Shown here in pieces: positions 6,851-33,879 of a DNA stretch of 64,000 bases. Positions within the stretch are counted from its first letter, which is position 1. Every line of letters starts with the position of its first letter. The position numbers and the translations under genes were made by a program. Below the pieces are notes generated by a model, which saw nothing but the letters and a program-made list of their open reading frames with translations, did no database searches and had not been told where the DNA came from. The stretch lies in the NCBI GenBank assembly GCA_963682055.1, contig OY821741.1, positions 24,436,711 through 24,500,710 on the forward strand. Reading direction: 5' to 3'. The stretch is from Primula veris (lineage: Eukaryota > Streptophyta > Magnoliopsida > Ericales > Primulaceae).

Positions 6851-7319
6851 TAATAATCATAAAAGGGGGGAAGAGACGGACCAGAGAGGTCTCGAAACAG
6901 CGTGACGTGGTACCTCCTCCCTTCTAATATGGTTCCTCTTCAACCCGGTTTACGTATAATCTCGTTCCGCTTCAACCCGGTTTACGTATAATCTCTCCCT
7001 AGGGTTTGGTGAGGTGTAAATATCATCGATTTAGTGAGAGATTGGGTCGTGGGTTTAATTATAGCTGGTTATTTATCTCTTTCTGTGTATATATACATGT
7101 ATATATAGAGAGAGATTGCTCGCCTGTATGAATCAAGGCAACAGAGAGAGAAGGGGGGATAGAGAGAATGGGATTTTTTGAAGAGGCTGTATTATTTTAT
7201 TTTTATTTAACACCCTAAAAATGGTTAAATTATTTAAGTACGGTCGTTTAAACTGAAACTAATTAATAATTGGTCCATTTGCTGACATTATTAAAAAAAT
7301 TGCTGACGTTACCGGAACA
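6851..7319. other. GC-richer patch with a 32-bp tandem duplicate, then AT-rich flank of the MULE
   Basis: AAGGGGGGAAGAGACG...GACGTGGTACCTCC resembles 5424-5490 (GTGGGGAAGAGACG...GACATGGCACCTCC), so the A-rich repeat is bracketed by related sequence. A 32-bp unit containing CTTCAACCCGGTTTACG is duplicated at 6932-6963 and 6964-6995. A TATATATACATGTATATATAG stretch and GA-rich tract follow. No gene is evident. Confidence 0.55.
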
Positions 7320-8235
7320 CAATTAAAAAAATGTAAATTTTGGATTGGACTATGGAAACAAAAGTATTTAAGGATTGGTCCATGAAACTGAAACTAATTA
7401 AGGATTGGTCCATTTTTCCTAACTAACCAATAAAAATGTAAAAAATCAGAAAAAATAAAAAAAATTCCAGAAAATAAAAATGCAAAAATGAAAAAAAAAA
7501 AAAAAATATGAAAAAATGCAAAAAAAAATAAAAGAGGCAAAACCCCGAAAATATATGAATATTTTTTTAAAAATCCCAAAAAATATAAAAAATCTCATAA
7601 AATCAACAAAAATCCAAAAACGCAAAAAAAAAACAGTCTGAACCAAAAACAGTCTGAACTATTTTAAGTCATTTTAAAAACAATCTGAACCATTTTTAGT
7701 CATTTTAAAAAAAGTCTGAACCAAAAACAGTCTCAACTTTTTTAAGTCATTTTAAAAACAGTCTCAACTTTTTTAAGTCATTTTAAAAACAGTCTGAACT
7801 ATTTTTAAGTCATTTTAAAAACAGTCTGAACTATTTTAAAAATAGTCTGAACTATTTTAAAAACAGTCTGAACTGTTTTTTTTTTTTTTTTTGCGTTTTC
7901 GGATTTTTGTTGATTTTAGATTTTTTTTGATTTTTTGGGATTATTTTTTGATTTTTTGGGATTTTTAAAAAAAAGTCGTGTTTTTTCGGGATTTTGCCTC
8001 TTTTATTTTTTTTTTGATTTTTTCATTTTTTTTTTTTTCATTTTTGCATTTTTATTTTCTGAATTTTTTTCATTTTTTCTGATTTTTTACATTTTTATTG
8101 GTTAATTAGGGGAAATGAACCAATGCTTAATTAGTTTCAGAAATAATTGATCAATCCTTAATTAAATTTTATAGCCGGACCAATCCTTAAATACTTTTGT
8201 TTTTTTTCATGGTACAATCCTTAATTTTCTCTAAA
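7320..8235. repeat. left end as a foldback: two long inverted arms around a motif cluster
   Basis: Sequence from ~7330 to 7635 (AAGTATTTAAGGATTGGTCC..., TAACCAATAAAAATG, AAAAGAGGCAAAACCCCG, AAAATCCAAAAACGC) is repeated as its reverse complement from ~7885 to 8230. The loop is the 7636-7880 motif array. The inner arm ends with modules A-B-C-D in the same orientation as the right terminus at 19460-19575. The left end is therefore either a terminal inverted repeat duplicated in inverted form, or a ~0.9-kb non-autonomous relative joined to the autonomous copy. Confidence 0.8.
7636..7880 (+). repeat. minisatellite of ACAGTCTGAACTATTTTAAG-type units
   Basis: About eight ~20-31 bp units, each containing (A)CAGTCTGAAC followed by ATTTTTAAGTCATTTTAAAA. 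It forms the loop of the left foldback and contains the octamer in ACAGTCTG orientation. Confidence 0.85.
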
Positions 8236-8365
8236 AGGGAAAAACTGAAACTTTCTCTCTCTCTTCTCTCTCTCTCCGAAAAAACTGAAATTTTCTCTCT
8301 TTATACCGCCAACAAATCCCGCCATCAGACTGTATTATCTCTCTTCGTTGATTTCAGAAAACAAC
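8236..8365 (+). promoter_or_regulatory. CT-rich leader of the Ulp1-like gene
   Basis: A CTCTCTCT-rich tract (8250-8305) containing CTTTATACC lies between the inner terminal module and the ATG at 8366. The transposase gene has a matching GA/CT-rich leader at 19255-19400, so both promoters seem to sit in or beside the element ends. The promoter role is inferred from position and composition. Confidence 0.4.
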
Positions 8366-10616
8366 ATGGTGAAGGTAAGTTTATTAATCGTTGTTTTTTA
8401 TTAAAACAGTCTAAATAAATTAATTAATTTAATTAAGGTAAGTTCAGTGATATTTTACATAAATTAGGGTTATTAATTGAGTTTGCCCATTTATTTCTTA
8501 ATTTATTTAATTTATCTTAATTTAATTTAATTAACTAAGTTTGCCCATTTTACATAAATTAGGGCTCATACTCTATTTTTAAATAAAATTGGTGATTCTA
8601 ATAAAATTAGTGAAAATATTATTCAGACTGTTTATATTCAGTTGTTTTGGTAATAAAAACAGTCTGAAAAAAAGTATTCAGACTGTTTTTATGTTTAGTG
8701 ATTCTAATAAAATTGGTACTCAGACTCTTTATATTCAGTTATTTTCGTAATAAAATTGGTAAAATAATATTCAGACTGTTTTTATGTTTAGCGATTCTAA
8801 TAAAATTGGTTCTCAGACTGTTTATATTCTAATCAGATTATGTTGGAAAAATACTCAGACTGTTTACTTTATCTATATTTTAATATGTGCATGAGTTTAC
8901 ACAAACTGTTTACAGACTTTTTGTTATTGTTTTTAGAAACATATTGCCATCAAACCTTCAACAACCTCCAAAAACCAACCATCTGACACCACAAACCCCA
9001 AAAAAGGCAACATACAGTACAAATCAAACATGGTTACTCTAATCAAGTTCTTTGTCGAAACAAATTTCAATCCAGCACAACTTCAATTAGTTAAGCAATA
9101 CTGTCCGTTCTGGGAATTGATCAATGCTTCTAGAAATGAAGAATTAACCACCAACCAGGCTAGGAAAAGTGATAAAGAATTGTATCAGATGGCCTTGAGG
9201 TACGACAGAAACTCACAAGCCCTTAAGCTAGGTAGATTCACAGTTCCCATAGAGAGAGACCGTGTGCGTGACATATATGGAATTTCTGGTAATGCTAAAA
9301 ATCCAATAGCTCTCACAAGCTTTACTAAAAACCAAGAAGCCTACCACAACTTTGTTGAAAGATGCTTTTCAAATAAACTCAACAAATCCAACCTAACCAA
9401 AACAGCTATCGTAAAGGCATTGAACGAAGCATTGGTATTAACAACAAAAATTGGTAGAGAGGACGTCGTAAGACTGGTAACATCATACATGTTAAATACA
9501 TTTTTCTTAACGGTGAGCGGCATGACCATAGCATTGGGGTATTTGAAAATAGTTGCCGGTGACATCAAAGAGATAAAGGAATATGATTGGACAACTGATA
9601 AACATGAAAAGCTTACGGAGTCGCTCAACAACCAAGACCCAAAATCACTGTCCACGTGTGTACTCACGATACCGGTACAATAAAATTACTTCTCAAGACC
9701 TTTTTTTATTAGTTCAGACTCTTTTTTATAAGTTCGTACTCTTTTTATATGTTCAGAATTTTCTTAAGTTGTTTATTATTACATCAGACTCTTTATTTAT
9801 TTTAATTATAAATCAGACTGTATTATTACTATCATAAATCAGACTGTATTAAAAAATATCAAAAGAATCTCAGACTGTTTTTACAAAAACTGTAAAAAGA
9901 GTCTGAATAATACTAAAAACAGTCTCAAAATATATTATTAAATCTTAGACTGTATTGTTACTATCATTTAAGACAATATACTAAAAAACAGTCTGAATCA
10001 TTTAAGACAATATATTATTGCTCTATCTATCTCAGACTGTTTTTACAAAAACTGTAAAAAGAGTCTGAATAATACTAGAAACAGTCTGAAAATATATTAT
10101 TAAATCTCAGACTGTATTGTTACTATCATTTAAATCTCAGACTGTATTCTTAAAAACAGTCTGAATCAATTAAGACAATATACTAAAAAAATATCATATG
10201 AATTAGAATCTCATATTGTTTTTATTTATTTTCATCTGTACAGTATGTCATCCTTGAAAAGTTCAATATTTCAAACCCGGACATGACAAAAGAAGCGTCC
10301 ACAAAGGCTTTGTGTGTCAAATGGGACGTCCTTTCATTCTTCAAGTTGTGTTTCTCAAGATTCACAATTGTAGACCTGTGCAATGAAAAGGTATAACACT
10401 ATTTTTATATAGACTGTTTTTATTCTATCTATACAATTGCTTCTGAAAAAATCGCTAATACTATTTTCATTCTTTAAATTATCATCATAGGGATGTAGAA
10501 AACAATCAAAAAACCTTGTTATTTATGATGGTAAAAAGAAGCTACCTCCGAAACCAAAGAAGTTAACAGATGAGGAGTTGGAGAAAGAGATAGACGAAGA
10601 TGTTGAAGATCCTCAA

Positions 10617-11210
10617 AATATTTACTCTAGTTCAACAGAAGAGGAAGGGTTGGAAAACTCTAAAAATGAAGGCTCAGAAAACTCAAAAGAAGACTATAAG
10701 AGCGAATGTGAGTCAGACAAAAACTTTACCATCTCCATTAGGAAGCAATTCGGAACACCAATAACTCCAAAATTCAATGAAGTAATTAGAACATCTAAGA
10801 GCACTGAATATGACGAGGGAGGTTCCTCTGGAGGTGGCTGTTATAATTACGGTGACGATGATATGCATGTGAATGAAAGTCCAATTCAAGAAGAGAGGAA
10901 AGCAGAAGAGTCCAATGTTTACTCTAGTTCAGCAGAAGAGGAAGGGTTGGAAAACTCTGAAAATGAAGGCTCAAAAAACTCAAAAGAAGACAATGAGAGC
11001 GAATGTGAATCAGACAAAAACTTTACCATCTCCCTTAGGAAGCAATTCGGAACACCAATTATTCCAAAATTCAATGAAGTAATGGGAACATCTAAGTGCA
11101 CTGAATATGACGAGGGAGGTCCCTCTGGAGGTGGCTATTATAATTACAGTGACAATGATATGCATGTGAATGAAAGTCCAATTCAAGAAGAGAGGAAAGA
11201 AGAAGAGTCA
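10617..11210 (+). repeat. 297-bp in-frame coding duplication in the Ulp1-like gene
   Basis: Copies at 10617-10913 and 10914-11210 encode 99-residue acidic repeats, each starting N-(I/V)-YSSS(T/A)EEEGLENS and containing KNFTIS(I/L)RKQFGTP. Divergence is low, so the duplication is recent. Confidence 0.92.
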
Positions 11211-11543
11211 GAAAAAGAAGAGACCAAAGTGGCTGAATTGCAGAAAAAACTAGATGAGGCAATTTTGCAAATTAAAGAGTATACAGACCTAACAACCACA
11301 ATGCAGAAACACATCAACGACCTTGGGAAATCTTTAGCTTTAGAAGAAAAATTAAAGTCCAAGTGGGTACCTGAGTGGGTACAAAAGGTTGAAAAAATGG
11401 TTGAAGAAAAGAAAATGCTCGAAAAGGAAATAAAAGGTAAACGCCATAAAATGCAATTCAAACTCTTCCTATCTTGTCTTTTTTTTTTCCCATTAAGCTT
11501 GGTTTCCCTAAGTCAGACTGTTTGTGTTATAGAAAATGAGCAG

Positions 11544-11825
11544 ATGATCACCAAATACCAAAGAATTGTATCTGATCTCCAACAAAAGGCATATTTAGAA
11601 AAAAATAAAATGAGAAACAAAGAAGTCGAGTTGAATCAAAAAATAGAAAAATTGGAGAATGAAAAGCAGCAGCTTGAGGAGGACATGATCACCAAAAACC
11701 AAAGAAATGTCTCTGATCTCCAGCAAAAGGCAGATTTAGAAAAAAATGAAATGAGAAACAAAGAAGTCGAGTTGAATCAAAAAATAGATACATTGGAGAA
11801 TGAAAAGAAGCAGCTTGAGGAAGAC
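11544..11825 (+). repeat. 141-bp in-frame coiled-coil duplication
   Basis: Copies at 11544-11684 and 11685-11825 encode 47-residue units rich in E, K, L and Q (MITK.QR.VSDLQQKA...ELNQKI..LENEK.QLEED), with heptad-like spacing that suggests a coiled coil. Confidence 0.92.
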
Positions 11826-14682
11826 CTACAAGGTAAAGTACCTCTATTGTAATCATATAATCTATTACTATCATAAATCAGACTGTATTAAATCTCAGTC
11901 TGTTTAAAAAATATCAATAGAATCTCAGACTGTTTTTACAAAAACTGTAAAAAGAGTCTGAATAATACAAAATTTATTTGAATATTAATGCAACTATTTT
12001 GCATTCACACTATATTACTAAAAATAGTCTGAAAATATATTATTAAATCTCAGACTGTATTGTTACTATCAGTCATAATGTATTATTAAAAACAGTCTGA
12101 AAAATATCAAATAGAAACCTTTATTTGAATATTAATGTAACTATTTTGCATTCATAATGTATTACTAAAAACAGTCTGAAAATATATTATTAAATTTCAG
12201 ACTGTATTGTTACTATCATTCATAATGTATTATTAAAAACAGTGTGAATCCCTTTCTTTTGCTTAATAAATTTCTTTCAATGAAATATATCAAATAGAAA
12301 CCTTTATTTGAATATTAATGCAACTATTTTGCATTCATACTGTATTACTAAAAACAGTCTGAAAATATATTATTAAATTTCAGACTGTATTGTTACTATC
12401 ATTCATAATGTATTATTAAAACGGTTTGAATCCCTTTCTTTTGCTTAATAAATAGAAACCTCAGACTGTATTATTACTATCATAAATCAGACTGTATTAT
12501 TTCAATGAATTATTCAGACTGTTTTTCCTCTTATTGCTGCAGGGGAACATGAGCTAATAGAAGGGCTATACAATGATGCACATGTGTATGCGGCACACGA
12601 CTACTCACAAAAGTGTCGAATCGATGAAGTTATAACTGATGCTCTCCTAAATGCGGATATACAGACTCCACAACTAGATTTAATCCGCAAGGAAATTCTG
12701 GAAAGACTCGGTTTTGATTATGATGGTCCGGGATCCAACATTCTCCGTATCAGAGCAAGAACAGATAGGAGACCACCAGTAAAGTACACACCAAGTAAAA
12801 TAGACTCTCCAACAAAAAACACAGAAAATGAGACCAGCTACGGAAACGTAAGCAAGTTGATCAAGATGACAAGTCTGAAATGGTCACAAACGTAGGCGCT
12901 CCTGATTCGTTGTTGGAAAAACCAAATAAAAAACCAAAGGGTGGACGAATAGCAAAGAAGAGAGCATAAAAAAAGAAATCTCCTGAACAGGACGACCAAG
13001 GTGACGAAGGCAATTTCCCGCTAATTGACTTCAGTAGTCTAGAAGACCATGTACCGGACAAAACAGAGAGAGCACACGACATCATCACAAATAAAAACGA
13101 GAATGATATCACAACAAAGCTCCCTGACAACATCTTCTACAAAATTCAAGAAATTCACAACGCGAATGGACCATTGTAAGTCAGACTCTTTTTATTTTTG
13201 TGTTTATGATACAATTAGGTCTCACACTCTTTACATTTAGGTTTTCCTCAGACTGTTTAAAACAGTATGAATTGTTTTAATGAAGACTGTTTTGTGTTTA
13301 TGATAGTTTTATATAGCTCAGACTCTTTTTAAATATAGTTCAGACTGTTTTGTTATACAAGCTCCAGACTATTTTTGTGTTGTTGTTTAAGTGTAATCAG
13401 ACTGTTTTCTGTAAGAAAAAAAAATGATCAATTGTGTTTTTATATACAACTTTTAATGTTTTTTTTTTATCTCAGACTGTTTTGTTGTCAGACTGTTTTT
13501 TTCAATCTCATATTGTTTTGTTGTCATACTGTTTTTTTCAATCTCAGACTGTTTTGTGCTTACTATAAAATTTTAATTTACAGTGCCGCCTTGTTCTCAA
13601 AACTCGGTTCAACCAATAAGGATTATTTCATCACTCTCAACGACATCTACAACTTAATTAATGGCCAGTTGCTATGCAATAATGTAAGTATACAAGGATC
13701 ATACAATTTAATTGCTTGCTTACAAGCTCTTGTACTCAGATTCTTTCTAAAACTTATCTTTATCGCAGACTCTTACAAGTATACACACATATTCAAGCAA
13801 GGGTACAAGGCAAAGTCTACAAAAACATTCAATATATTGACCTCCATATTATGGGTAAAAACACAAACTCTTTTTATGTTGTCAATGCATCACTTTGTTT
13901 CTTTACAAAAAGTGTCTGAGATTTTATCTTAAACCTTTTCGTTGTTGTTTGGTTTGTAGGTTTTTTTAAAAGACAGAAAAAGATACGAGGATGTGCTCGA
14001 TACGAAAATCACCGATTTGCTGAGGAAGCATGTTCACAACGGATACAAGTTATTGTTCTTCCCTATTAACTCGAATAGGAACCGACCCATTGATGTAGAG
14101 GTAGACCACTGAACTCTATTGGTTCTAAACGTCGAGGCAAAGAAGTGGAGTTTTTATAATAGCAACATACCTCTTTGCAATATCAACAGACCAGACCCTT
14201 ACCTTGATGACGCCAAACTAGTGGTAATTCAGACTCTTTTTAAAATATAACAGTCTGAATTAGCAAAAACTACCCTCTTCTTTTTAATGTATATATTTTT
14301 TGTTATGTTACAGATGGCCTTTGTACAAGAAAAAATGAAAATGATAGCTGATGTGCCCTCTTTCTCACTTGATTCACAAGATGGGTACACATTAGACATT
14401 GTAACAGACTGCCCCTATCAAGGAGCCACGTAAGAAAAATATGCACCCTACAGATATTCAGATTGTTTTTACTATGCATCTAAATCAAAATTAATTTTAC
14501 ATGTTTTATTTTTTTACAGATCAGACTGTGCATTGTATGTGTGCTACAACATGGAGACAATCATCAATGATGAACCTGTCACAAGAGAGACGACTTCAGA
14601 CAAGATACTAGAGTTCAAGGCCAAGATAATAACGAGAATCGTCAATCGATACATATCAGTCAACACAAAGAGTCTGAATTAA

Positions 14683-15898
14683 CAAAAACAGTTTGATTGA
14701 TGTAAATATTAGTTGTAAACAGTCTGAATGGAAAAATAGTTTATTATTTTGTAAACATTCTGAATAGAAAAGAGTTCTATTATTTTGTTCGAATATGATT
14801 TTTGTAAAATATTTTGTTTCATTTTGTTTTTCTTACGCCAATATATTTTTCAATGAATCTTAAGACTGTATTATTACTATCAATCTTAATGTATTATTAA
14901 AAACAGTATGAAAACATATAAAAAATGTATTTATACTGTATTACTAAAAACAGTCTGAAAATATATTATTAAATCTCAGACTGTATTATTACTATCAATT
15001 ATACTGTATTATTATAAACAGTCTGAATCATTAGAATCTCATACTGTTTCAGAAAGAATCTCAGACCGTTTCAGTACTCAAACAATTCAGACTGTTTTAA
15101 AGAAGTCTATTAAAAAAGAGTCTGAATAATATGATTGTTGTAACTAGTTTGCTTCATTTTATTTCTTCCGTTAATATATTTCAATGAAATATAAACAGTC
15201 TAAAAAAATATTATTAAATCTCAGACTGTATTATTACAATCTGAATCATTTACGACAATATACTAAAAAAAACATCATATGACATATATCATTAGAATCT
15301 CAGACTGTTTTTATGTTCATTAGAGTATCATACTACTTTTATGTTCATTAGAGTACCATACTGTTTTCAGAAATAATCTCAGACTGTTTCAGTACTCACA
15401 CAATTCAGACTGTTTTAAAGAAGTATATTGACTAATAAAAAAGAGTCTGAATAATATGATTGATGTAACTAGTTTTCTTCGTTTTCTTTATTATAATATA
15501 TTTTCAATGAAATATATCAATAGAATCTCACACTGTATTATTACAATCATAAAAATCAGACTGTATTGTTAAAAACAGTCTGAAAACATATAAACAGTCT
15601 GTATTACAATCATAATCTCAGACTGTTTTTAATACAAAACTGTAAAAAGAGTCTGAATATTATTACAAAATTTATTTGAATATTAATGCAACTATTTGAA
15701 TAAAAATCAGACTGTATTATTAAAAACAGTCTGAAAACATATAAACAGTCTGTATTACAATCATAATCTCAGACTGTTTTTAATACAAAACTGTAAAAAG
15801 AGTCTGAATATTATTACAAAAGAGTCTGATCTGTAAAAAGGCCAACATCATATACAACTAAAAAAAGTCTAATATAAACCTAAAACATCTATTCACGA
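14683..15898. other. spacer between convergent MULE genes, motif-rich
   Basis: It holds about 17 exact octamers in mixed orientation. Recurrent ~150-bp blocks (for example 15617-15710 and 15770-15830) contain a CTCAGACTGTTTTTA...CTGTAAAAAGAGTCTGAAT inverted pair. It probably serves as the 3' ends of both genes. No reading frame is credible. Confidence 0.75.
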
Positions 15899-18533
15899 TC
15901 ACCCTTCAGAAGAAAGCTTCTCTTTGCACGTCCGTTGATTATGATTTGCATATTTCTTGCACATCCCGCGTTGATTAGCTTTCTTCATTTTCGCGACTGG
16001 ATTTGGTTCACCACCTGATAGAATACGCTTCTTTTGAGGCCTTCCCAGAGGCCTTGATGTTTCTGGAGGTTTAATGTTTGACTCATTAATCAACTCAGAA
16101 TCTCGCCAAATAGAACTAGGGACTGGGTTGATTGGCGTATTGCACGAACTTCGATAAATGTCCACAAAGAACCATTTTTCAACAAAATCCTCCATAGGCA
16201 GTTTGTCCCTAAAAATACACAAAACTGCATGTTGGCACGGGAACCCAGTCCTCTTCCATTCATGACATGAGCATTGCCGATGTCTCAGGTCCACATATTC
16301 GGATGGAGCTGACAACATTTCATATTTCCAAAACCCTAACCTCACAACCAAAAACGACAAACCGTTGTGAATGAATGTGTCCCACTTTTCTTGGTAGAAA
16401 GGACACAGAACACCTTTCCATGTTGCTGCAAAAAAAAAACATAACCAAAAAACTCTTAAAAACGTATACCTAGTAAAAACAGTCTGATATGATGACAATG
16501 ACAACACGAATTCACATAACAGTCTGAGTTGCAACAAAATAATCTAACTTAACAGAAAAAAGTCCAAACCTGCTTTGATTCTTCTTTCATCGAACCATTT
16601 CATCAATTTCAATCTTAGCTTATCAACCAGTTCAGTGATAGGTAATTCTCTAATATCATTGATCCAATTATTGAATGATTCCACAGCATTGGAAGTTGTC
16701 TCACCATATCGCGACTTTACACAATATGCTTCGGCCCATTTCATAGGAGTGCAATTCTGCATAAATTCATCTATTTTACGACCCCCCATATTGCGCAACA
16801 ACTTCATATTCTGTTCAAACAGAGGAATTGTAGCAGAAGTTGCACAAGTTTGCAACAAATTAACAATTTCAGTCCTTTTTGTTCCATCACCGCCACTAAA
16901 CTTCAATTTCAAATTATCCTTCAAATGGCGTAGACAGTAATAATGGTCTGCGTTGGGAAAAATGCGAGACATACTATCCAACAAACCAATATGTCTGTCC
17001 GAGAAAAATGTCAAAGGACGGTCATCACCTATAGTTAACTTCAATTGTTCTAGAAACCAACCCCAATTATCAATATTCTCACTGCTAACAATAGCAAAAG
17101 CAAGTGGATACAACCATGTAACATTAAGAAACTCAAAAACAGTCTGATAACACACAAAAAGTCTGATAACAAAAACAGTCTGATAATAAAACAGTCTGAT
17201 AAAAAAACAGTCTGATAACAAAAACAGTCTGATAACAAAACAGTCTGAGATAAAAAAAATTCTAAAATAACAAAAAACAGTCTGATAACAAAAACAGTCT
17301 GATAACCAAACAGTCTGACATAAAAAAAACATTAAAAGTTGTATATAACAACACAATTGATCATTTTTTTTCTTACATAAAACAATCTAATTACACTTAA
17401 ACAACAACATAAAAACAGTTTAGGCTTGTATAACAAAATAGTCTGAACTAAATTTAAAAACAATCTGAGTTATATAAACCATCAATGTAACAAAAAACAA
17501 ACAAAAAAGCAGCTTGAAAAAGGAAAAACAAACCTTTATTACCATTCTTGCCGACTGCGGACAATAAAACACCCTTATATTTTCCTTTTAAAAAAGTTCC
17601 GTCAATGAAAAGCATGGGGCGAACAACTTTAAACCCTTTTATGCAGCCATGAAGAGAGAAAAATACCCTTTTGAATTGATTTGAACCATTCCCATCCTTA
17701 TCAACTTCCAGGACACTGCGACTTCCAGGATTTGTCGATTTTAAACCCACAAAATACCTCTCTAATTGGTTGTATGATTCATTGATATCCCCACTGTGTA
17801 TTCCGCTGGCCATCTGGACAGCATTCCAAGCTTTATAATAGCTTATCTCCAACCCATAACCAATCCTTAAATGCGATATTATAGCAGAAGGAGCTAAATT
17901 TGGATTTTCCCTCACATATTCATTCATTATGTTCGATACGAGCTTGCTATTTACATGCTTGTTCAGAGCACCTGGAGCTAAGTTTTGGCATGTATGCTGT
18001 GATTCAAACTTTCTATACTTAAATTTTTGGTCTGAGGTCCACACACCAGCATATATGTACCAGGTACAACCAATATTATCCCTCTCTTCACAAAAAGCGA
18101 CCACCCTATCTGATGAATTCCTTCCAAAATAGGGGACATGACCTTCATATATACAAAATTTCCATAATGACTCTCTAAAGTGATCAACACAACTAAACAA
18201 CTGCCCAACCCCAGTTATCAAGTTTGCCCACTCACTCGTTTTATAAACCTTCCTAACAGCTAAAATAGAACCTGCATCACAATAATCATCCTCTTCCGAA
18301 AATTCAGAACAATCAGCACTTATTTCCTTCGAAGTACCAACAGTGCAAGTGGATACAGTCCCAACAAAAACTAGAATCTCTACTATTTTTTTTCCCAACA
18401 CGTTAAACAGAGCGACCATATCTTTCAACTCATCATCCGATCTCAACAAACATCGCTCATCTCTAATTGCTAAGTAGTTTAGAGACACTGAATCCAAATT
18501 CAAGCTAAATCTATTACTTATTGTATGTAATAA
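15899..18533 (-). CDS. MURA-type MULE transposase (DDE, SWIM zinc finger), three exons
   Basis: Minus-strand exons are ~18533/18503-17534, ~17115-16570 and 16425-15899. Exon 1 carries the N-terminal region with an FC..R....C.W.I.A...F....H.C pattern typical of MuDR-type DNA-binding segments, then MLFIDGTFLKGKYKG with the first catalytic Asp. Exon 2 has FFSDRHIGLLDSM (second Asp), CLRHLKDNL (C2H motif) and ETTSNAVESFNNW (Glu). Exon 3 has the SWIM finger CSCHEWKRTGFPCQHAV, a GRPQKKR basic patch and CKKYANHNQRTC. The 144-bp intron 16569-16426 is canonical and in phase. The first intron has donor AAAG|GTTTGT, but in-frame joining to LYPLAFAIVSSEN needs an acceptor at 17116 where ACAT is found, so the site may be mutated. 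The start is unresolved: the frame is open to ~18533 behind a possible acceptor, with no clear ATG. This may be the enzyme that moved the element. Confidence 0.88.
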
Positions 18534-19459
18534 CTACACATAGGTCATACGCTTATTCAGCGCAACAGGGACACATTTATCATTATATCGACAATACATT
18601 ACTAAATCAAACGAATCCATCAGAAAAAATACTTGTGCACAAAAAACATAACAACAATTGATCTCTAAAATAGTCTGAAACAGACTAAATAAGAATAATA
18701 ATAAAACAAAAACAATTGATCTGTAAAAAGAACTCTAAATAATTGATTTGTAAAACAGTCTGAATACAAGAAATATGAACTCTTGAATACAATAGCTCAG
18801 ACTGTTTTTTAATAATAAACGCAATTGATCTCTAAAAACCTAACAAAAACATACATTGTGTTACAGAAAACAGTTTGAGTTATTATAATACAATAGCTCA
18901 GACTGTTTATAATAACTCAGACTGTTTTCTGTAACTCTTGAATACAATAGCTCAGACTGTTTTTTAAAAACAGTCTGAATACAAGAAAAAACAGTATGAA
19001 CTCTTGAATTTTAATAATACAAAATCATACATTGTGTTACAGAACAGTCTCAATTATTATAATAAACACTGTTTTTTAAAACAGTCTGAATACAAAAACA
19101 GTATGAAGTATTGAATTTTAATAATAAACGCAATTGATCTCTAAAACCTAACAAAAACATGCATTGTGTTACAGCAAACAGTATGAGTTAAAAAACAGCA
19201 ATTTGAGCTAAACTCAGCAAGAAAAACGAAGCTAGCAATAAAAAACAATGTGAAGGTTCTAGAGAGAGAGATAACCTGTCCGTCGGAGATAGATAGAGCA
19301 ATTTGAAAAAATTCGTTCAGTGAGAGAGATGATTTAGAGAGAGATATACAGCTAATAGTTTAGAGAGATGGTTTACAGAGAGAGATGGAGAGAGATGGTT
19401 TAGAGAGAGAGATACAACTGATATATGGTTTAAAAAAACAGAATATATATATTATATAT
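18534..19459 (-). promoter_or_regulatory. 5' region of the transposase: motif cluster and GA/CT-rich leader
   Basis: From 18660 to 19130 exact octamers in both orientations are interspersed with CAATTGATCTCTAAAA-type repeats. From 19255 to 19430 there are many AGAGAGAGAT blocks (CT-rich on the coding strand), then an AT run ATATATATTATATATAG just inside the right end that could act as a TATA region for leftward transcription. A GACGGACAG|GTTATCTC donor-like site near 19275 suggests a non-coding first exon. All functions are inferred. Confidence 0.45.
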
Positions 19460-19575
19460 AGTGGACCAATCCTTAATTAGTTTCAGAAATAATGGACCAA
19501 TCCTTAAATAAATTTATTAGCCGGACCAATCCTTAAATACATTTGTTTTCATGGTCCAATCCTTAATTTTCTCTT
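19460..19575. repeat. right terminal module array of the MULE
   Basis: Four tandem variants of GGACCAATCCTTAA with spacers ending in AGTTTCAGAAATAAT, ATTAGCC and TGTTTTCAT. The same order is seen at 8110-8230 (direct) and, inverted and partial, at 7340-7420. It probably contains transposase-binding sites. Confidence 0.8.
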
Positions 19576-19700: not shown

Positions 19701-19800
19701 CCGATCGATCGGCTGTCAGCTCCGATCGATCGGTCAAGCATTCTGTAAATTTTTACAGATTGCTTGGTCGGTCAATCGGAGCTAACAACCGATCGATCGG
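19701..19800. repeat. 100-bp near-perfect palindrome built on CCGATCGATCGG
   Basis: The two ends are CCGATCGATCGG and CCGATCGATCGG. The next segments GCTGTCAGCTCC / GGAGCTAACA(A)C and GGTCAAGCA.TCTGTAAA / TTTACAGA.TGCTTGGTC pair with few mismatches around a TTT centre near 19751. The structure resembles a tiny foldback element or hairpin-forming recombination product. Confidence 0.85.
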
Positions 19801-19856: not shown

Positions 19857-21030
19857 TAGGGCTGGGAAAAAAATTACAAATTCCCAACCCGGTCCGAGTC
19901 CCGATCCGTTATTTTCCCGATCCGAATATGTCCCGATCCGAATTATTGGATTTTATCCCGTCCCGATTATAATTGGATTCGGGATCGGATTGTCATACTA
20001 AAATCCGTCGGATTTCCCGATCCGTCCCGATCCAATCAATATGTCTTACTTTTATATATTTATATTTTTTATATCTAATTTTATAGTATTTTAACTCTAC
20101 AACTATTAATAAACGTAATTAACAATAATTCTCAATTAACTCTGACTTTGTCTCTCACTTTATTTGCCCTAGCAAAATTGCTGGCTCTTGTGTTTCATCT
20201 CTTCCATCTCTCTCCCCAAAAAGGTTAGATATCTAATCCTTGATTAATATTGGTTTAATTTAATCTATAGTTGAATAAACAAATTATAAAAAAAGTGACG
20301 ATCTGCTAGGTGACTTTTGCCCTTTGTTGATTTGTTATATTAATTAATCCCATATGGTCACACATAACCATACAAGTAATATGGTGGTAGATTCAACTTT
20401 TTTATAAAGGAGGGACTATGATATGCAAAGTACAAACCCCTTCTTTTTATTAACTATTAATAACAGTTTTGCTTTTTGTTTCTATATGATGATCCTATTA
20501 ATTGTTTATTCTTGTTGGTTGGTGAAGTAAAATTAAGGACCGCATAACAATTAGTTAATATTTTATTCAGGCTTAGTTGTTTAACACTTCATATGCCTTA
20601 TGGAGTTATTCAATACATCATTTATTTTTATAAAATGACTTTTTAGTGTTTAAGTGTTGATATTCTTGTGAATTTGAGAACAAACAGAATAATGTATTCC
20701 ATATCTTTCTTTCTCATATTTTTTTATATTGACTATATAACTTGGTTTTAAAGCATACTCAATATAGAAATTAAATGATCTTCAATTAGTTGTATCTAAT
20801 GCTTAAATGCATCTAAGTAAATAATTTTCCAAAAGAAAGTCACCCAATTCTTATCTCATGTTTTATTTCTTTTATAACTTAGTGAAGCTCATTACTTTGA
20901 TCGTGCAACTTTACATTCTTTTTTTTCTTGTAATTAATATTTTTTATTTCTAATTAGGTGAGAATGGATCAACCTACACCAGAAATAGATGTCACAGACT
21001 CAACCTTCATCCCAAATCGAAATACCCATG
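19857..21030 (+). mobile_element. hAT-like DNA transposon, 5' part only
   Basis: The sequence starts TAGGGCTGGGAAAAAAA and is followed by a dense subterminal array of CCCGATCCG/GGATCGG words on both strands (19890-20035). That is the usual layout of plant hAT ends: a short terminal repeat plus subterminal transposase-binding repeats. A donor-like AAAAAG|GTTAGATA near 20223 and an acceptor at TAATTAG 20951-20957 frame a possible ~730-bp leader intron. The element breaks off at ~21030 at the start of the telomere-like repeat; no right end was found. Confidence 0.55.
20964..21030 (+). pseudogene. start of a hAT-like transposase frame, truncated
   Basis: ATG at 20964 directly follows a splice-acceptor-like TAG and opens MDQPTPEIDVTDSTF and about seven more residues before the sequence becomes the telomere-like unit at 21031. 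It is too short to show a BED finger or DDE domain. The assignment rests on its position inside the hAT-like end. Confidence 0.35.
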
Positions 21031-21604
21031 CCATAAATCCAAGAAAAAAAATGAGAAATATTCCCTACATATGCAAGAACATTACCTAAACCCTAAACCT
21101 GAAACCCTAAACACTAAAACATAAATCCTAAACCCCAAACCATACAAATATAAATAAAATGTTGAAAAACAAAAAAGTCGGTAAAAACCGTGTACTATAC
21201 CATAAATCCAAGAAAAAAAAATGAGGAATATTCCCTACATATGCAAGAACATTACCTAAACCCTAAACCTGAAACCCTAAACCCTAAACCCTAAACCCTA
21301 AACCATACAAATATAAATAAAATGTCGAAAAACAAAAAATTCGGTAAAAACCGTGTACTATAGGCCATAAATCCAAGAAAATAAATGAGGAATATTCCCT
21401 ACATATGCAAGAACATTAACTAAACCCTAAACCTTAAACCCTAAACCCTAAACCATACAAATATAAATAAAATGTCGAAAAACAAAAAAGTCGGTAAAAA
21501 CTATAGGCCATAAATCCAAGAAAAAAAATGAGAAATATTCCCTACATATGCAAGAACATTACCTAAACCCTAAACCTGAAACCCTAAACCCTAAAACCTA
21601 AACC
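21031..21604 (+). repeat. composite tandem repeat with interstitial CCCTAAA blocks
   Basis: Four copies start with CCATAAATCCAAGAAAA at 21031, 21200, 21365 and 21508 (spacings 169, 165 and 143 bp). Each holds ATTCCCTACATATGCAAG, a short run of (C)CCTAAA-type heptamers with degenerate members (CCTAAACCTGAAACCCTAAA), and all but the last hold ACAAATATAAATAAAATG and GTCGGTAAAAA. The fourth is cut inside its telomere-like run and joins the satellite at 21604/21605. The longest perfect run is only about four heptamers, so this is interstitial, not a chromosome end. Confidence 0.9.
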
Positions 21605-24600
21605 ATTAAGATTCCTACATTGTACAAAAGGATGAGAAAGAAGTAAATAAGTTCAATATCCATGCCGAAAATCTCATTAAATGGGATTAAAGGCCATCAC
21701 AGCCCAAACCCTTGATAAGACTCTGACATTGAGCAGTTGAATAAACGGGAAAGCAAGTGAACATGTTCAAGATCGATGTCGAAAATCTCATTAAGTAGGA
21801 TTAAAGGCCATCACAGCCCAAATACTTAATGAGATTCCTACATTGTTCAAAGGGATGAGAAATGAAGTGAGCAAGTTCAAATGCCCAAAGTCTCATTAAA
21901 TAGGATTAAAGGCCATCACAGCCCAAACCCTTAATAAGACTTTGACATTGAGAATTTGAATGAACGAGAAAGCAAGTGAGCATGTTCAAGCTCGATGTCG
22001 AAAATCTCATTCAGTAGGATTAAAGGCCATTACAACCCAAATCCTTAATAAGATTCCTACATTGTTCAAGAGGATGAGAAAGAATTGAACAAGTTCAATA
22101 TGGATGCCGAAAACCTCATTAAATGGGATTAAAGGCCATCACAGCCCAAACCCTTGATAAGACTCTGACATTGAGCAGTTGAATGAACGGGAAAGCAAGT
22201 GAACATGTTCAAGATCGTATCGAAAATCTCATTAAGTAGGATTAAAGGCCATCACCGTCCAAATACTTAATAAGATTCATACATTGTTCAAAGTGATGAG
22301 AAATGAAGTGAGCAAGTTCAAATGCCGAAAGTCTCATTAAATAGGATTAAAGGCCATCACAGCCCAAATCCTTAATAAAACTCTGACATTGAGCAGTTGA
22401 ATGAACGAGAAAGCAAGTGAGCATGTTCAAGCTCGATGTCGAAAATCTAATTAAGTAGGATTAAAGGCCATCACAGCCAAAATACTTAATAAGATTCCTA
22501 CATTGTTAAAAAGGATGAAAAAGAAGTGAACAAGTTCAATATCGATGGCGAAAATCTCATTAAATGGGATTAAAGGCCATCAAAGCCCAAACCCTTGATA
22601 AGACTCTGACATTGAGCAGCGGAATGAACGGGAAAGCAAGTGAGCATGTTCAAGATCGATGTCGAAAATCTCATTAAGTAGGATTAAAGGCCATCACAGC
22701 CCAAATACTTAATAAGATTCCTACATTATTCAAAAGGATGAGAAAGAAGTGAACAAGATCAATATCCATGCCGAAAATCTTATTAAATGGGATTAAAGGA
22801 CATCACAGCCCAAACCCTTGATAAGACTCTGACATTGAGCAGTTGAATGAACGGGAAAGCAAGTGAACATGTTCAAGATCGATATCAAAAATCTCATTAA
22901 GTATGATTAAAGGCCATCACAGCCCAAATACTTAATGAGATTCCTACATTATTCAAAGGGATGAGAAATGAAGTGACCCAGTTCAAATGCCGAAAATCTC
23001 ATTAAATAGGATTAAAGGCCATCGCAGCCCAAACCCTTAATAAGACTCTGACATTGAGCAGTTGAATGAACGAGAAAGCAAGTGAGCATGTTCAAGCTCG
23101 AAGTCTAAAATCTCATTAAGTAGGATTAAAGGCCATCACAGCCCAAATCCTTAATAAGACTCTGACATTGAGCAGATGAATGAACGAGAGCGCAAGTGAG
23201 CATGTTCAAGATCGATGTCGAAAATCTCATTCAGTAGGATTAAAGGCCATCACAGCCCAAATCCTTAATAAGATTCCTACATTGTTCAAAAGGATGAGAA
23301 AGAATTGAACAAGTTCAATATCGATGCCGAAAATCCCATTAAATGGGATTAAAGGCCATCACAGCCCAAACCCTTGATAAGACTCTGACATTGAGCGGTG
23401 GAATGAACGGGAAAGCAAGTTAGCATGTTCAAGATCGATGTCGAAAATCTCATTAAGTAAGTTTAAAGGCCATCACAGCCCAAATACTTAATAAGATTCC
23501 TGCATTGTTCAAAAGGATGAGAAAGAAGTGAACAAGTTCAATATCGATGAGAAAATCTCATTAAATGGTATTAAAGCCCATCACAGCCCAAACCCTTGAG
23601 AAGACTGTGACATTGAGCAGATGAATGAATGAGAAAGCAAGTGAACATGTTCATGATCGATGTCGAAAATCTCATTAAGTAGGATTAAAGGCCATCACAT
23701 CCCAAATACTTAATAAGATTCCTACATTGTTCAAAGGGATGAGAAAGAAGTGAACAAGTTCAATATCGATTCCGAAAATCTCATTAAATGGCATTAAAGG
23801 CCATCACCGCCCAAACCCTTGATAAGACTCAGACATTGAGCAGATGAATGAACGAGAAAGCAAGTGAGCAAGTTCAAGATCGATGTCGAAAATCTCATTA
23901 AGTAGGATTAAAGGCCATCACAGCCCAAATACTTAATAAGACTTCTACATTGTTCAAAGGGATGAGGAATGAAGTGAGCAAGTTCAAAAGCCGAAAGTCT
24001 CATTAAATAGGATTAAAGGCCATCACAGCCCAAACCCGTAATAAGACTCTGACATTGAGCAGTTGAATGAACGAGAGAGCAAGTGAGCATGTTTAAAATC
24101 GATATCGAAAATCTCATTCAGTTGGATTAAAGGCCATCACAGCCCAAATACTTAATAAGATTACTACATTGTTCAAAAGTATGAGAAAGAAGTGAACAAG
24201 TTCAATATCGATGCCGAAAATCTCATTAAATGGGATTAAAGGCCATCACAGCCCAAACGCTTGATAAGACTCTGACATTGAGCAGATGAATGAACGAGAA
24301 TGCAAGTGAGCATGTACAAGATCGATGTCGAAAATCTCATTAAGTAGGATTAAAGGCCATCACAGCCCATATACTTAATAAGATTCCTACATTGTTTAAA
24401 GGGATGAGAAATGAAGTGAGCTAGTTCAAATGCCGAAAGTCTCATTAAATAGGATTAAAGGCCATCACAGCCCAAACCATTAATAAGACTATGACATTGA
24501 GTAGTTGAATGAACGAGAAAGCAAGTGAACATGTTCAAGATCGATGTCGAAAATCTCATTAAGTAGGATTAAAGGCCATCACAGCCCAAATACTTAATAA

Positions 24601-27600
24601 GATTCCTACATTGTTCAAATCGATGAGAAATGAAGTGAGAAAGTTCAAATACCGAAAATCTCATTAAATAGGATTAAAGGCCATCACAGCCCAAATCCTT
24701 AATAAGACTCTGACATTGAGCAGTTGAATAAACGAGAAAGCAAGTGAGCATGTTCAAACTCGATGTCGAAAATCTCATTAAGTAGGATTAAAGGCCATCA
24801 CAGCCCAAATCCTTAATAGGATTCCTACATTGTTCAAAAGGATGAGAAAGAAGTGAACAAGTTCAATATTGATGCCGAAAATCTCATTAAATGGGATTAA
24901 AGCCATCACAGCCTAAACCCTTTATAAGACTCTGACATTGAGCTGTGAAATGAACGGGAAAGCAAGTGAGCATGTTCAAGATCGATGTCGAAAATCTCAT
25001 TAAGTATGATTAAAGGCCATCACAGCCCAAATGCTTAATAAGATTCCTACATTGTTCAAATGGATGAGAAATGAAGTGAGCAAATTCAAATGCCGAAAGT
25101 CTCATTAAATATGATTAAAGGCCATCACAGCCCAAACCCTTAATAAGACTCTGACATTGAGCAGATGAATGAACGAGAGAGCAAGTCAGCATGTTCAAGA
25201 TCGATGTCGAAAATCTCATTCAGTAGGATTAAAGGCTATCACAGCCCAAATCCTTAATAAGATTCCTACATTGTTCAAAAGGATGAGAAAGAAGTGAACG
25301 AGTTCAATATCGATGCCAAAAATCTCATTAAATGGGATTAAAGGCCATTATAGCCCAAACCCATGATAAGACTCTGACCTTGAGCAGATAAATGAACGAG
25401 AAAGCAAGTGAGCATGTTCAAGATCGATGTCAAAAGTCTCATTAAGTAGGATTAAAGGCCATCACAGCCCAAATACTTAATAAGATTCCTACATTGTTCA
25501 AAGGGATGAGAAATGAAGTGAGCAAGTTCAAATGCCGAAAGTCTCATTAAATAGGATTAAAGGCCATCACAGCCCAAACCCTTAATAAGACTCTGAGATT
25601 GAGCAGTTAAATGAACGAGAAAGCAAGTGAGCATGTTCAAGATCGATATCGAAAATCTCATTAATTAGGATTAAAGGCCATCACAGCCCAAATACTTAAT
25701 AAATTTCCTACATTGTTCAAAAGGATGAGAAAGAAGTGAACAAGTTCAATATCGATGCCTAAAATCTCATTAAATGGGATTAAAGGCCATCACTGCCCAA
25801 ACCCTTAATAAGAATCTGACATTGAGCAGTTGAATGAACGAAAGAGCAATTGAGCATGTTCAAGATCGATGTCGAAAATCTCATTCAGTAGGATTAAAGG
25901 CCATCACAGCCCAAAACCTTAATAAGATTCCTACATTGTTCAAAAGGATGAGAAAGAAGTCAACAAGTTCAATATCGATGCCGAAAATATCATTAAATGG
26001 GATTAAAGGCCATAACAACCCATACCCTTGATAAGACTTTGACATTGAGCAGATGAATGAACGAGAAAGCAAGTGAGCATGTTCAAAATCGAAGTCGAAA
26101 ATCTCAATAAGTAGGATTAAAGGCCATCACAGCCCAAATACTTAATAAGATTCCTACATTGTTCACAAGGATGAGAAATGAAGTGAGCAAATATAAATGC
26201 CAAAAGTCTGATTAAATAGGATTAAAGGCCATCACAGCCCAAACCCTTAATAAGACTATGACATTGAGCAGTTGAATGAACGAGAAGGAAAGTGAGCATG
26301 TTCAAGCTCGATGTCAAAAATCTCATTAAGTAGGATTAAAGGCCATCACAGCGCAAATCCTTAATAAGATTCCTACATTGTTCAAAAGGATGAGAAAGAA
26401 GTGAACAAGTTCAATATCGATGACGAAAATCTCATTAAATTGGATTAAAGGCCATCACAGGCCAAACCCTAAATAAGACTCTTACGTTGAGCAGTGGAAT
26501 GAACGGGAAAGCAAGTGAGCATGTACAAGATCGATGTCGAAAATCTCATTAAGTAGGATTAAAGGCCATCACAGCCCAAATACTTAATAAGATTCCAACA
26601 TTGTTCAAAGAGATGAGAAATGAAGTGAGTAAATTCAAATGCCGAAATTCTCATTAAATAGGATTAAAGGCCATCACAGCCCAAACCCTTAATAAGACTC
26701 AGACATTGAGAAGTTCAATGAATGAGAGAGCAAGTGAGCATGTTCAAGATCGATGTCGAAAATCTCATTTAGTAGGATTAAAGGCCATCACAGCCCAAAT
26801 CTTTAATAAGATTCCTACATTGTTCAAAAGGATGAGAAAGAAGTGAACAAGTTCAATATCGATGCCGAAAATCTCATTAAATGGGATTAATGGCCATCAC
26901 AGCCCAAACCCATGATAAGACTCTGACATTGAGCAGATAAATGAACGAGAACGCAAGTGAGCATCTTCAAGATCGATGTCGAAAATCTCATTCAGTAGGA
27001 TTAAAGGCCATCACAGCCCAAATCCTTAAAAAGATTCCTACATTGTTCAAAAGAATGAGAAAGAAGTGAACAAATTCAATATCGATGCCAAAAATCTCAT
27101 TAAATGGGATTAGAGGCTATCACAGCCCAAACCCATGATAAGACTCTGACATTGAGCAGATAAATGAATGAGAAAGCAAGTGAGCATGTTCAAGATCGAT
27201 GTCAAAAGTCTCATTAAGTAGGATTAAAGGCCATCACAGCCCAAATACTTAATAAGATTCCTACATTATTCAAAGGGATGAGAAATGAAGTGAGTAAGTT
27301 CAAATGTCGAATGTCTCATTAAATAGGATTAAAGGCCATCACAGCCCAAACCCTTAATAAGACTCTGACATTGAGCAGATGAATGAACGAGAGAGCAAGT
27401 CAGCATGTTCAAGCTCGATGTCGAAAATCTCATTCAGTAGGATTAAAGGATATCACAGCCCAAATATTTAATCAGATTCCTACATTGTTCAAAGGGATGA
27501 GAAATGAAGTGAGCAAGTTCAATATCGATGCCGAAAACCTCATTAAATGGGATTAAAGGCCATCACAGCCCAAACCCTTGATAAGACTCTGACATTGAGC

Positions 27601-30358
27601 AGTTGAATTAACGGGAAAGCAAGTGAGCATGTTCAAGATCGATGTCAAAAGTCTCATTAAGTAGGATTAAAGGCCATCACAGCCCAAATACTTAATAAGA
27701 TTCCTACATTGTTCAAAGGGATGAGAAATGAAATGAGCAAGTTCAAATGCCGAAAGTCTCATTAAATAGGATTAAAGGAAATCACAGCCCAAACCCTTAA
27801 TAAGACACTGACATTGAGCAGTTGAATGAACGAGAAAGCATGTGAGCATGTTCAAGATTGATGTCGAAAATCTCATTAATTACTATTAAAGTCCATCACA
27901 TCCCAAATACTTAATAAGATTTCTACATTGTTCAAAAGGATGAGAAAGAAGTGAACAAGTTCAATATCGATGATTTCTACATTGTTCAAAAGGATGAGAA
28001 AGAAGTGAACAAGTTCAATATCGATGCCGAAAAGTTCATTAAATGGGATTAAAGGCCATCACAGCCCAAACCCTTAATAAGACTCTGACATTGAGCAGTG
28101 GAATGTACGGGAAAGCATGTCATTATTCAAAGGGATGAGAAATGAAGTGAGTAAGTTCAAATGTCGAATGTCTCATTAAATAGGATTAAAGGCCATCACA
28201 GCCCAAACCCTTAATAAGACTCTGACATTGAGCAGATGAATGAACGAGAGAGCAAGTCAGCATGTTCAAGCTCGATGTCGAAAATCTCATTAAGTAGGAT
28301 TAAAGGATATCACAGCCCAAATATTTAATCAGATTCCTACATTGTTCAAAGGGATGAGAAATGAAGTGAGCAAGTTCAATATCGATGCCGAAAACCTCAT
28401 TAAATGGGATTAAAGGCCATCACAGCCCAAACCCTTGATAAGACTCTGACATTGAGCAGTTGAATTAACGGGAAAGCTAGTGAGCATGTTCAAGATCGAT
28501 GTCAAAAATCTCATTAAGTAGGATTAAAGGACATCACAACCCAAATATTTAATAAAATTCCTACATTGTTCAAAGGGATGAGAAATGAAATGAGCAAGTT
28601 CAAATGCCGAAAGTCTCATTAAATAGGATTAAAGGAAATCACAGCCCAAACCCTTAATAAGACACTGACATTGAGCAGTTGAATGAACGAGAAAGCATGT
28701 GAGCATGTTCAAGATTGATGTCGAAAATCTCATTAATTACTATTAAAGTCCATCACATCCCAAATACTTAATAAGATTTCTACATTGTTCAAAAGGATGA
28801 GAAAGAAGTGAACAAGTTCAATATCGATGATTTCTACATTGTTCAAAAGGATGAGAAAGAAGTGAACAAGTTCAATATCGATGCCGAAAAGTTCATTAAA
28901 TGGGATTAAAGGCCATCACAGCCCAAACCCTTAATAAGACTCTGACATTGAGCAGTGGAATGTACGGGAAAGCATGTGAGCATGTTCATGATCGATGTCG
29001 AAAATCTCATTAAGTAGGATTAAAGGTCATCACAGCCCAAATACTTAATAAGATTCCAACATTGTTCAAACGGATGAGAAATGACGTGAGCAAGTTCAAA
29101 TGCCGAAAGTCTCATTGAATATGATTAAAGGCCATCACAGCCCAAACCCTTAATAAGACTCTGACATTGAGCAGTTGAATGAATGAAAAAGCAAGTGAAC
29201 ATGTTCAAGATCGATGTCGAAAATCTCATTCAGTAGGATTAAAGGCCATCACAGCCCAAATCCTTAATAAGATTCCTATATTGTTCAAAAGGATGAGAAA
29301 GAAGTAAACAAGTTCAATATCGATGTCGAAAATCTCATTAAATGGGATTAAAGGCCATCACGGCCCAAACCCTTGATAAGACTCTGACATTGAGCAGTTG
29401 AATGTACGGGAAAGCATGTGAGCATGTTCATGATCGATGTCGAAAATCTCATTAAGTAGGATTAAAGGTCATCACAGCCCAAATACTTAATAAGATTCCA
29501 ACATTGTTCAAACGGATGAGAAATGACGTGAGCAAGTTCAAATGCCGAAAGTCTCATTGAATATGATTAAAGGCCATCACAGCCCAAACCCTTAATAAGA
29601 CTCTGACATTGAGCAGTTGAATGAATGAAAAAGCAAGTGAACATGTTCAAGATCGATGTCGAAAATCTCATTCAGTAGGATTAAAGGCCATCACAGCCCA
29701 AATCCTTAATAAGATTCCTATATTGTTCAAAAGGATGAGAAAGAAGTAAACAAGTTCAATATCGATGTCGAAAATCTCATTAAATGGGATTAAAGGCCAT
29801 CACGGCCCAAACCCTTGATAAGACTCTGACATTGAGCAGTTGAATGAACGGGAAAGCAAGTGAACATGTTCAATATCGATGTCGAAAATCTCATTAAGTA
29901 GGATTAAAGGCCATCACAGCCCAAATACTTAATAAGATTCCTACATTGTTCAAAGGGATGAGAAATAAAGTGAGCAAGTTCAAATGCCGAAAGTCTCATT
30001 AAATTGGATTAAAGGCCATCACAGCCCAAACCTTTAATAAGACTCTGAAATTGAGCAGTTGAATGAACGAGAAAGCAAGTGAGCATGTTCAAGCTCGATG
30101 TCGAAAATCTCATTAAGTAGGATTAAAGGCCATCACAGCCCAAATCCTTAATAAGATTCCTACATTGTTCCAAAGGATGAGAAAGAATTGTACAAGTTCA
30201 ATATCGATGCCGAAAATCTCATTAAATGGGATTAAAGGGCATCACAGCCCAAACCTTTGATAAAACTCTGACATTGAGAAGATGAATGAACGAGAAAGCA
30301 AGTGAGCATGTTCAAGATCGATGTCGAAAATCTCATTAAGTAGGATTAAAGGCCATCC
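21605..30358. repeat. 219-bp satellite array 2 (about 40 dimers), heterogeneous
   Basis: Same family as array 1, with the GGCCATCACAGCCCAAA box every ~105/114 bp. Two sub-variants of the inter-box segment occur: GAAATGAAGTGAGCAAGTTC with AAATGCCGAAAG, and GAAAGAAGTGAACAAGTTC with AATATCGATGCCGAAAA. They often alternate, which suggests higher-order units of ~438 bp. Recent segmental duplications are visible (27264 onward repeated at 28121; 28961 onward repeated at 29403). No gene is present; open frames are repeat artefacts. Confidence 0.97.
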
Positions 30359-33870: not shown

Positions 33871-33879
33871 GCGTTGTAT

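Follow-up and report, generated by a model that had tools for sequence, protein, structure and literature searches.

A Mutator-like element family of Primula veris with a short motif multiplied in its non-coding DNA, probably the address tag of a VANC/KIU-type anti-silencing system

Analysis of a 64,000-nucleotide stretch of the Primula veris genome (assembly GCA_963682055.1, contig OY821741.1, positions 24,436,711 to 24,500,710; this whole stretch is called the window below) reveals a decayed Mutator-like element (MULE) whose non-coding DNA is crowded with one short motif, AAAACAGTCTGA. Copies of the same family carry the motif throughout the genome, more distant relatives carry motifs of their own, and a second gene of the element, opposed to the transposase gene, encodes a long protein with an Ulp1-type domain and an N-terminal part that changes faster than the transposase. 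We suggest, with a probability of about 0.72, that this is a sequence-specific anti-silencing system of the VANC/KIU type in a plant MULE, with AAAACAGTCTGA as its address tag. The motif set and the element that bears it are placed in the window as follows.

7222 to 19572, no strand assigned: whole MULE, a decayed copy, delimited by comparison with sister copies; the left limit in the window is inferred.
7633 to 19088, both orientations: set of octamers CAGACTGT/ACAGTCTG with core AAAACAGTCTGA, in introns, spacer and subterminal DNA.
7331 to 8231, no strand assigned: nested non-autonomous relative with inverted ends of its own and five octamers (7633, 7649, 7789, 7821 and 7863).

An exact count finds 76 octamers in the window, 42 as CAGACTGT and 34 as ACAGTCTG, the first at 7633 and the last ending at 19088, and none across the remainder of the 64 kb. 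A mono-nucleotide model expects 0.06 in the non-coding DNA of the element, which bears out the preliminary description of this DNA, where about 75 had been counted by hand against fewer than one expected. Position counts reveal that the fuller site is AAAACAGTCTGA, the three bases 5' of the core being mostly A; the core ACAGTCTGA is present in 74 of the 76 octamers and is usually preceded by AAA. The octamer first described is therefore real, but the conserved core is longer. ACAGTCTGA has 74 copies, whereas 20 Markov-shuffled versions of the element contained no 9-mer more than 7 times, and forms with one mismatch are frequent (CAGACTCT, 16; CATACTGT, 10). The tags are scattered in both orientations and many are not part of arrays; their core is constant and their flanks vary. 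According to our hand-made exon model, 75 of the 76 lie outside exons. The earlier view that they are confined to the non-coding DNA of a single transposon at 7636 to 19130 has thus to be adjusted: an octamer-bearing MULE is indeed located there but extends from about 7222 to 19572, one octamer is exonic and five belong to the nested relative. Likewise, the statement that there are none elsewhere is true of the window but not of the genome, where isolated single octamers occur. The sole exonic octamer, at 14522, codes for Ser-Asp-Cys, a stretch that includes the Cys presumed to be catalytic in the Ulp1 domain; the tag so overlaps a presumed catalytic codon of the active site, possibly by chance.

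Across the 34 contigs of the genome (436.5 Mb) there are 22,806 octamers versus 6,360 for the reversed control, and 12,580 copies of the 12-mer AAAACAGTCTGA versus 138. When a transposase exon was used as the query, 1,368 candidates yielded 150 scored matches; by hand count at least 82 of these are nearly complete and at least 90% identical, 19 of them with exactly the same score. Ten of ten sister copies contain octamers (78, 84, 39, 113, 105, 105, 45, 44, 24 and 112 per 14-kb slice), whereas the reversed control occurs 0 to 2 times in each of the same slices; absence from sister copies was thus not found. All of the 30 best 3.57-kb loci around the transposase exon, the window's own included, hold 19 to 32 octamers each. 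In contrast, 3 kb around the first octamers elsewhere on contig 1 held a single octamer at eight of eight loci, so the octamer is not equally frequent in unrelated DNA. Two tight motif clusters with no scored transposase nearby (11 and 17 octamers) both bear the left terminal sequence of the element (97% identity over 134 bp and 94% over 85 bp), and are small derivatives that keep one end and the tags. A third cluster, on contig 1 at 5591780–5594754, contains 27 copies of AAAACAGTCTGA within 3 kb, in one orientation and with no scored transposase nearby; it is perhaps a large tag-only derivative. The sister copy at C6:12.30 Mb measures 4.6 kb end to end and has transposase sequence and no reader gene, with 39 octamers kept. 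Another copy, at C2:23.68 Mb, shares the window's flanks as well (98% over 14.0 kb) and is therefore a segmental duplicate and not an independent insertion. Two sister copies are 99.86% identical over 11.9 kb, which, together with the 19 matches of identical score, indicates that the elements have multiplied in bursts.

Six more distant relatives were compared as 4-kb pieces, and the percentages given for them denote relatedness to the focal family. The 78% relative (L064) carries ACAGTATGA six times, three relatives at 56–59% carry ACAATCTAA 13, 5 and 11 times, one at 51% carries GGGTATGAA 13 times and one at 44% carries ATACACAAT 15 times. A cross-table of five motifs and seven element loci is nearly empty off the diagonal, with reversed controls at 0 to 3; the exceptions are 8 ACAGTATGA and 1 ACAATCTAA in the focal element and 1 ACAGTCTGA in the 78% relative, and the window outside the MULE has 1 ACAATCTAA and 1 ATACACAAT. 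Genome-wide counts are 8,431 versus 927 for TTAGATTGTC and 2,552 versus 148 for GGGTATGAACT. Of the motifs from this genome, ACAGTATGA alone shows clear kinship to ACAGTCTGA (0 of 2000 shuffles score as well), that of ACAATCTAA being marginal (177 of 2000). A private short motif multiplied in the family's non-coding DNA is what characterizes a VANC system.

The second gene of the element is transcribed towards the transposase gene and is laid out below.

8366 to 14690, plus strand: VANC-like gene, a hand-made predicted model with exons 8366–8374, 8937–9674, 10244–10390, 10491–11436, 11533–11832, 12543–13175 and Ulp1 exons at about 13584–14690; a sister copy has these exons open.
8937 to 9674, plus strand: exon of the N-terminal domain, the candidate motif reader, relatives of which are faintly DUF1985-like.
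10617 to 11209, plus strand: coding tandem repeat, 297 bp x 2, a single unit in a sister copy.
11544 to 11825, plus strand: coding tandem repeat of two 141-bp units that by eye resemble a coiled coil, a single unit in a sister copy.
12967 to 12969, plus strand: in-frame TAA, in exon 12543–13175.
13960 to 14690, plus strand: Ulp1-type C48 peptidase domain.

Peptidase_C48 scores 24.5 bits against a Pfam cut-off of 20.7, a score obtained from joined pieces with X placed at the stop and at the joins. The domain is above its cut-off and belongs to a MULE gene opposed to the transposase, which is the arrangement of KIU genes. DUF1985, the VANC domain, weakly matches three of four N-domains (E 0.0055, 0.037 and 0.012). 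A comparison of the 815-residue reader with a protein database scored 7990 candidates, none of them at E 0.001. The gene is broken in the window by the TAA, by a frame shift near 12.84 kb in the same exon and by an in-frame TGA at 14110, directly 3' of the presumed catalytic His. Searching the genome with the N-terminal exon gave 150 scored matches of 193 candidates. We compared these with 52 distant transposase places (transposase identity below 90%; fragments of close copies and second fragments of one place excluded), and an N-domain match lies within 30 kb at 36 of them (32 within 12 kb) against a chance expectation of 0.34, on the opposite strand in 36 of 36. Identity of the N-domain drops faster than that of the transposase (46% versus 78%, 29% versus 57%), and the means over 35 distant pairs, drawn from 39 rows hand-picked for a visible partner, are 31% and 54%, respectively. 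A reader that diverges faster than the transposase and peptide repeats that vary (compared here inside the close family only) are both features of VANC systems. On these grounds the Ulp1-like gene is the best candidate for the reader.

The remaining parts of the MULE are listed here.

15899 to 18620, minus strand: transposase, exons at about 17530–18620, 16571–17126 and 15899–16426, with DBD_Tnp_Mut, MULE and SWIM domains.
19455 to 19572, no strand assigned: right terminal region with GGACCAATCCTTAA repeats and no octamers, likely a transposase site.
13308 to 13536, plus strand: block in a reader-gene intron, sharing inverted segments with 17135–17478.
17135 to 17478, minus strand: block in a transposase intron, partner of 13308–13536, with nine octamers mostly 16–17 bp apart.

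All three transposase domains exceed the Pfam cut-offs, as expected of a MURA-type transposase of a MULE. That the element encodes both a transposase and an Ulp1-like protein had been recognized earlier, whereas the breakage of both genes in the window copy had gone unnoticed; the transposase is interrupted by an in-frame TAG at 18536–18534. In one sister copy the three transposase exons and those reader-gene exons that were read are all open. The window copy, being broken, could only respond in trans. Sister copies have the termini GGGTAAATTTTGGATTGG...CCAATCCTTAATTTTCTC; in the window the left end is degraded (about 7222–7330) and the right end, ...CCAATCCTTAATTTTCTC, is at about 19572. Target-site duplications of about 9 bp, as expected of a MULE, are found on sister copies: of seven end pairs two match at 9/9, one at 8/9, one at 7/9 and three at 1–3/9. 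None is seen at the degraded ends of the window copy. Terminal inverted repeats (TIR) are clear, a sister copy showing 85% over 81 bp, and the element is therefore not classed as a VANDAL, which is a non-TIR MULE. The nested insert at 7331–8231 is absent at that place from both sister copies compared there.

The closest parallel is VANDAL21 of Arabidopsis. According to passages of Hosaka et al. 2017 (PMC5735166), VANC21 binds YAGTATTAY in the non-coding parts of its element, a motif rare elsewhere, and both VANC targets and VANC proteins contain tandem repeats, those of the proteins being variable; sister families differ. The focal element likewise is a MULE with a short motif multiplied in introns, spacers and ends and rare elsewhere, and has tandem repeats in the target DNA and in the protein. 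It differs in that AAAACAGTCTGA is about equally frequent in both orientations whereas VANDAL21 arrays, as those passages describe them, run in the same orientation, in its clear inverted ends of about 80 bp, and in that the candidate reader combines a C48 domain with no more than faint DUF1985 similarity. The same source gives AGTTGTCC/AGTTGTAC as the VANC6 motif, tandemly repeated in non-coding DNA, so VANDAL6 also combines a related reader with a different motif; its discussion leaves the part of VANC that sets specificity to future work. The focal motif has no significant likeness to the VANDAL21 motif (474 of 3000 shuffles score as well) and none to the two VANC6 motifs (2648 and 1659 of 3000). 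Shared ancestry with the Arabidopsis motifs was considered and rejected, the best of 15 comparisons (ACAGTATGA with YAGTATTAY, 77 of 3000 shuffles) not being significant after correction. Competition with RNA-directed DNA methylation was added to this picture by Sasaki et al. 2023 (PMC10398659).

The gene arrangement is that of KIU (Kaonashi) MULEs, in which an Ulp1-domain gene is reversed relative to the transposase (passages of PMC13317346 and PMC2528002). Passages of the former, a 2026 review, describe Ulp1-bearing VANC genes (KIU), date the Ulp1 capture to the monocot/eudicot split and state that KIU-carrying VANDALs recognise their own motifs; grapevine KIU MULEs, according to passages of PMC2528002, come in TIR and non-TIR versions. 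The passages on KIU MULEs give no motif to set beside the focal one. The preliminary description had proposed an independently evolved pair of motif and protein. This is unsupported: because the N-domains are weakly DUF1985-like in three of four cases, a C48 domain is present and KIU genes were already known, the system looks like a divergent, homologous branch of the Arabidopsis one. What sets it apart from the known kind is the motif itself, the mixed orientation of the sites with no consistent phasing, the clear inverted ends and the CHG load. A literature search for the octamer together with transposons showed no plant MULE among the titles listed, which does not establish absence from print, and the focal motif is not named in the titles and abstract openings listed by searches for VANC and Ulp1-bearing MULEs.

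Element-specific recognition, as put forward in the preliminary description, remains the best reading of a motif that is family-private, almost entirely non-coding, present in ten of ten sister copies and two derivatives, and accompanied by a co-diversifying gene. In the mechanism that we propose, the DUF1985-like N-terminal part and the variable peptide repeats would bind arrays of the tag AAAACAGTCTGA in the family's own non-coding DNA, and the bound protein would remove silent chromatin, or block it, over the whole element, acting both in cis and in trans. Autonomous copies and small tag-bearing copies may thereby escape silencing. Tags would multiply via local tandem duplication and via blocks copied from one intron to another; tag and reader might drift jointly, leaving each related family with its own tag.

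Several observations weigh against this proposal. The best DUF1985 score, 17.1 bits, is below the Pfam cut-off of 35.1; the window's own N-domain has no DUF1985 match in a Pfam scan, and the cut-off is passed nowhere genome-wide, with two weaker matches at other places. The predicted structure of the N-domain is too poor (predicted local distance difference test score, pLDDT, 46) to show a DNA-binding fold. No scored N-domain lies near 16 of the 52 distant transposase places. The count of six for ACAGTATGA in L064 is barely above the shuffle maximum of 4, and in L060, a 56% relative, the top 9-mer belongs to a GC-rich repeat that outranks the family motif. The focal motif lacks consistent helical phasing in five copies and in the derivative arrays, whereas two sister families are phased. 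Finally, pooled conservation of the tags is only modestly over controls, and from intact to decayed copies tags surpass the CWG-bearing control 9-mers in just two of five comparisons.

Work on VANC systems in eudicots by Sasaki et al., which appeared in EMBO J in 2022, is said to report that DUF1985, DUF287 and Ulp1 domains turn over fast, as do the motifs, that Arabidopsis has at least ten such systems, and that motif density and helical periodicity play a role. At 10.5 bp the nearest-neighbour R is 0.31 in the window (56 gaps), where the gaps are shifted off whole turns and the 16–17 bp array is probably the cause, and 0.08, 0.09, 0.18 and 0.06 in the other four copies. A half-turn signal in the derivative arrays (p ~0.04) was dropped since many periods had been tried. 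For GGGTATGAACT the spacing has a period of 10.45 bp (R 0.87, from 54 gaps among the first 100 places), and for TTAGATTGTC one of 10.9 bp (R 0.69, from 60 gaps among the 71 of the first 100 places that are clustered); as copies share descent, these values are not independent tests.

Three other explanations deserve to be weighed. The motif may be a minisatellite-like sequence that no protein reads and that slippage and gene conversion have spread neutrally through non-coding DNA free of constraint; in AT-rich introns this would need no function, and many octamers do sit in tandem arrays. Blocks have also been copied between introns: 13308–13536 and 17135–17478 share three arms of 55–56 nt that are 91–95% complementary, a sharing not found in one sister copy compared. 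Pooled over ten pairs in both directions (pairs share copies, so rows are not independent), tags are unchanged at 562/900 sites against 704/1543 for CWG controls, 1269/2488 for GC-matched and 20659/41186 for the remaining 9-mers. From intact to decayed copies tags are kept no better than CWG in three comparisons (53/83, 11/32 and 14/33 versus 51/78, 8/22 and 14/22) and better in two (41/72 and 8/16 versus 43/92 and 3/9). From decayed to intact copies, however, tags surpass CWG in five of five (53/65, 41/57, 11/17, 14/20 and 8/12 versus 65/127, 53/128, 14/39, 12/49 and 5/25), with the caveat that the intact copy is simply richer in motifs. Decayed copies therefore seem to lose tags in a nearly neutral way, and it is the open-frame copies that have the high counts. 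We consider neutral expansion quite unlikely, as tags occur in either orientation, many stand apart from any array, the sequence next to the constant core varies, and related families have four further motifs.

CACTA and hAT elements carry subterminal repeats, and the octamers might in the same manner be repeated transposase-binding sites. Family specificity and retention in small derivatives would fit, but the octamer is absent from the outer 182–311 bp on the left and 295–484 bp on the right in six of six copies measured (from 7331 in the window copy) and fills internal introns and the spacer instead of concentrating at the ends, which bear another repeat, AAGGATTGGTCC. This makes a role as transposase sites very unlikely. 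An RNA-level signal on the transcripts, either a splicing enhancer or a small-RNA target, would account for the many intronic sites; the near-equal orientation (42/34), the sites in the spacer between convergent genes and those in small derivatives, where these genes are absent from the stretches examined, leave it hardly any credit.

A variant of the anti-silencing proposal concerns the methylation load of the tag. The core, CAG-T-CTG, has two CHG sites per strand. In the window 150 of 265 non-coding CWG sites lie in exact tags and 205 of 265 within one mismatch, and the exact figures in five sister copies are 222/331 (the copy with open frames), 220/328, 206/317, 206/331 and 164/282; tags thus hold 57–67% of the non-coding CWG (CHG) sites across copies. 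CG sites are few (37 in the window, 41 in the open-frame copy, 39–43 in five sister copies). The nine bases of the tag might then be both the main CHG-methylation site and the seat of the reader, forming a methylation-loaded switch, which we regard as unlikely. Reader binding would shield the tags or need them unmethylated, giving two states, and the Ulp1-like domain would act on SUMO-bearing silencing proteins. ACAATCTAA, which differs from the focal tag at two positions and has no CHG site, might represent an escape route from a contest between host and reader, the kinship of the two tags being marginal.

Other repeats were noted outside the MULE. Next to it, at 19701–19800, there is an inverted repeat of 49 nt with abundant CGATCGATCG (arms 86% complementary, 2-nt gap). 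L060 has the GC-rich repeat CCCGACCCG, and a somewhat similar tcccgatccg repeat is located at 19898–19943, also outside the MULE. Units of about 163 bp with AAACCCT runs at 21030–21604 form an interstitial telomere-like repeat. A satellite array of about 220-bp units adjoins the MULE at 21651–30365 (32.6 and 6.9 copies in two rows, with GATTAAAGGCCATCACAGCCCAAA in common), and several pieces of Gypsy-like retrotransposon polyprotein, recognised by eye, lie on both strands at 31644–44010.

At least five tags thus coexist in one genome with rapidly changing relatives of a single reader domain, and this set is a ready test of co-evolution between a DNA-binding protein and its target. It also suggests that sequence-specific anti-silencing reaches past the non-TIR VANDALs of Arabidopsis, and it offers new motif-reader pairs for steering plant methylation. 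Lifting silencing from itself only may explain how such an element bursts without wrecking its host.

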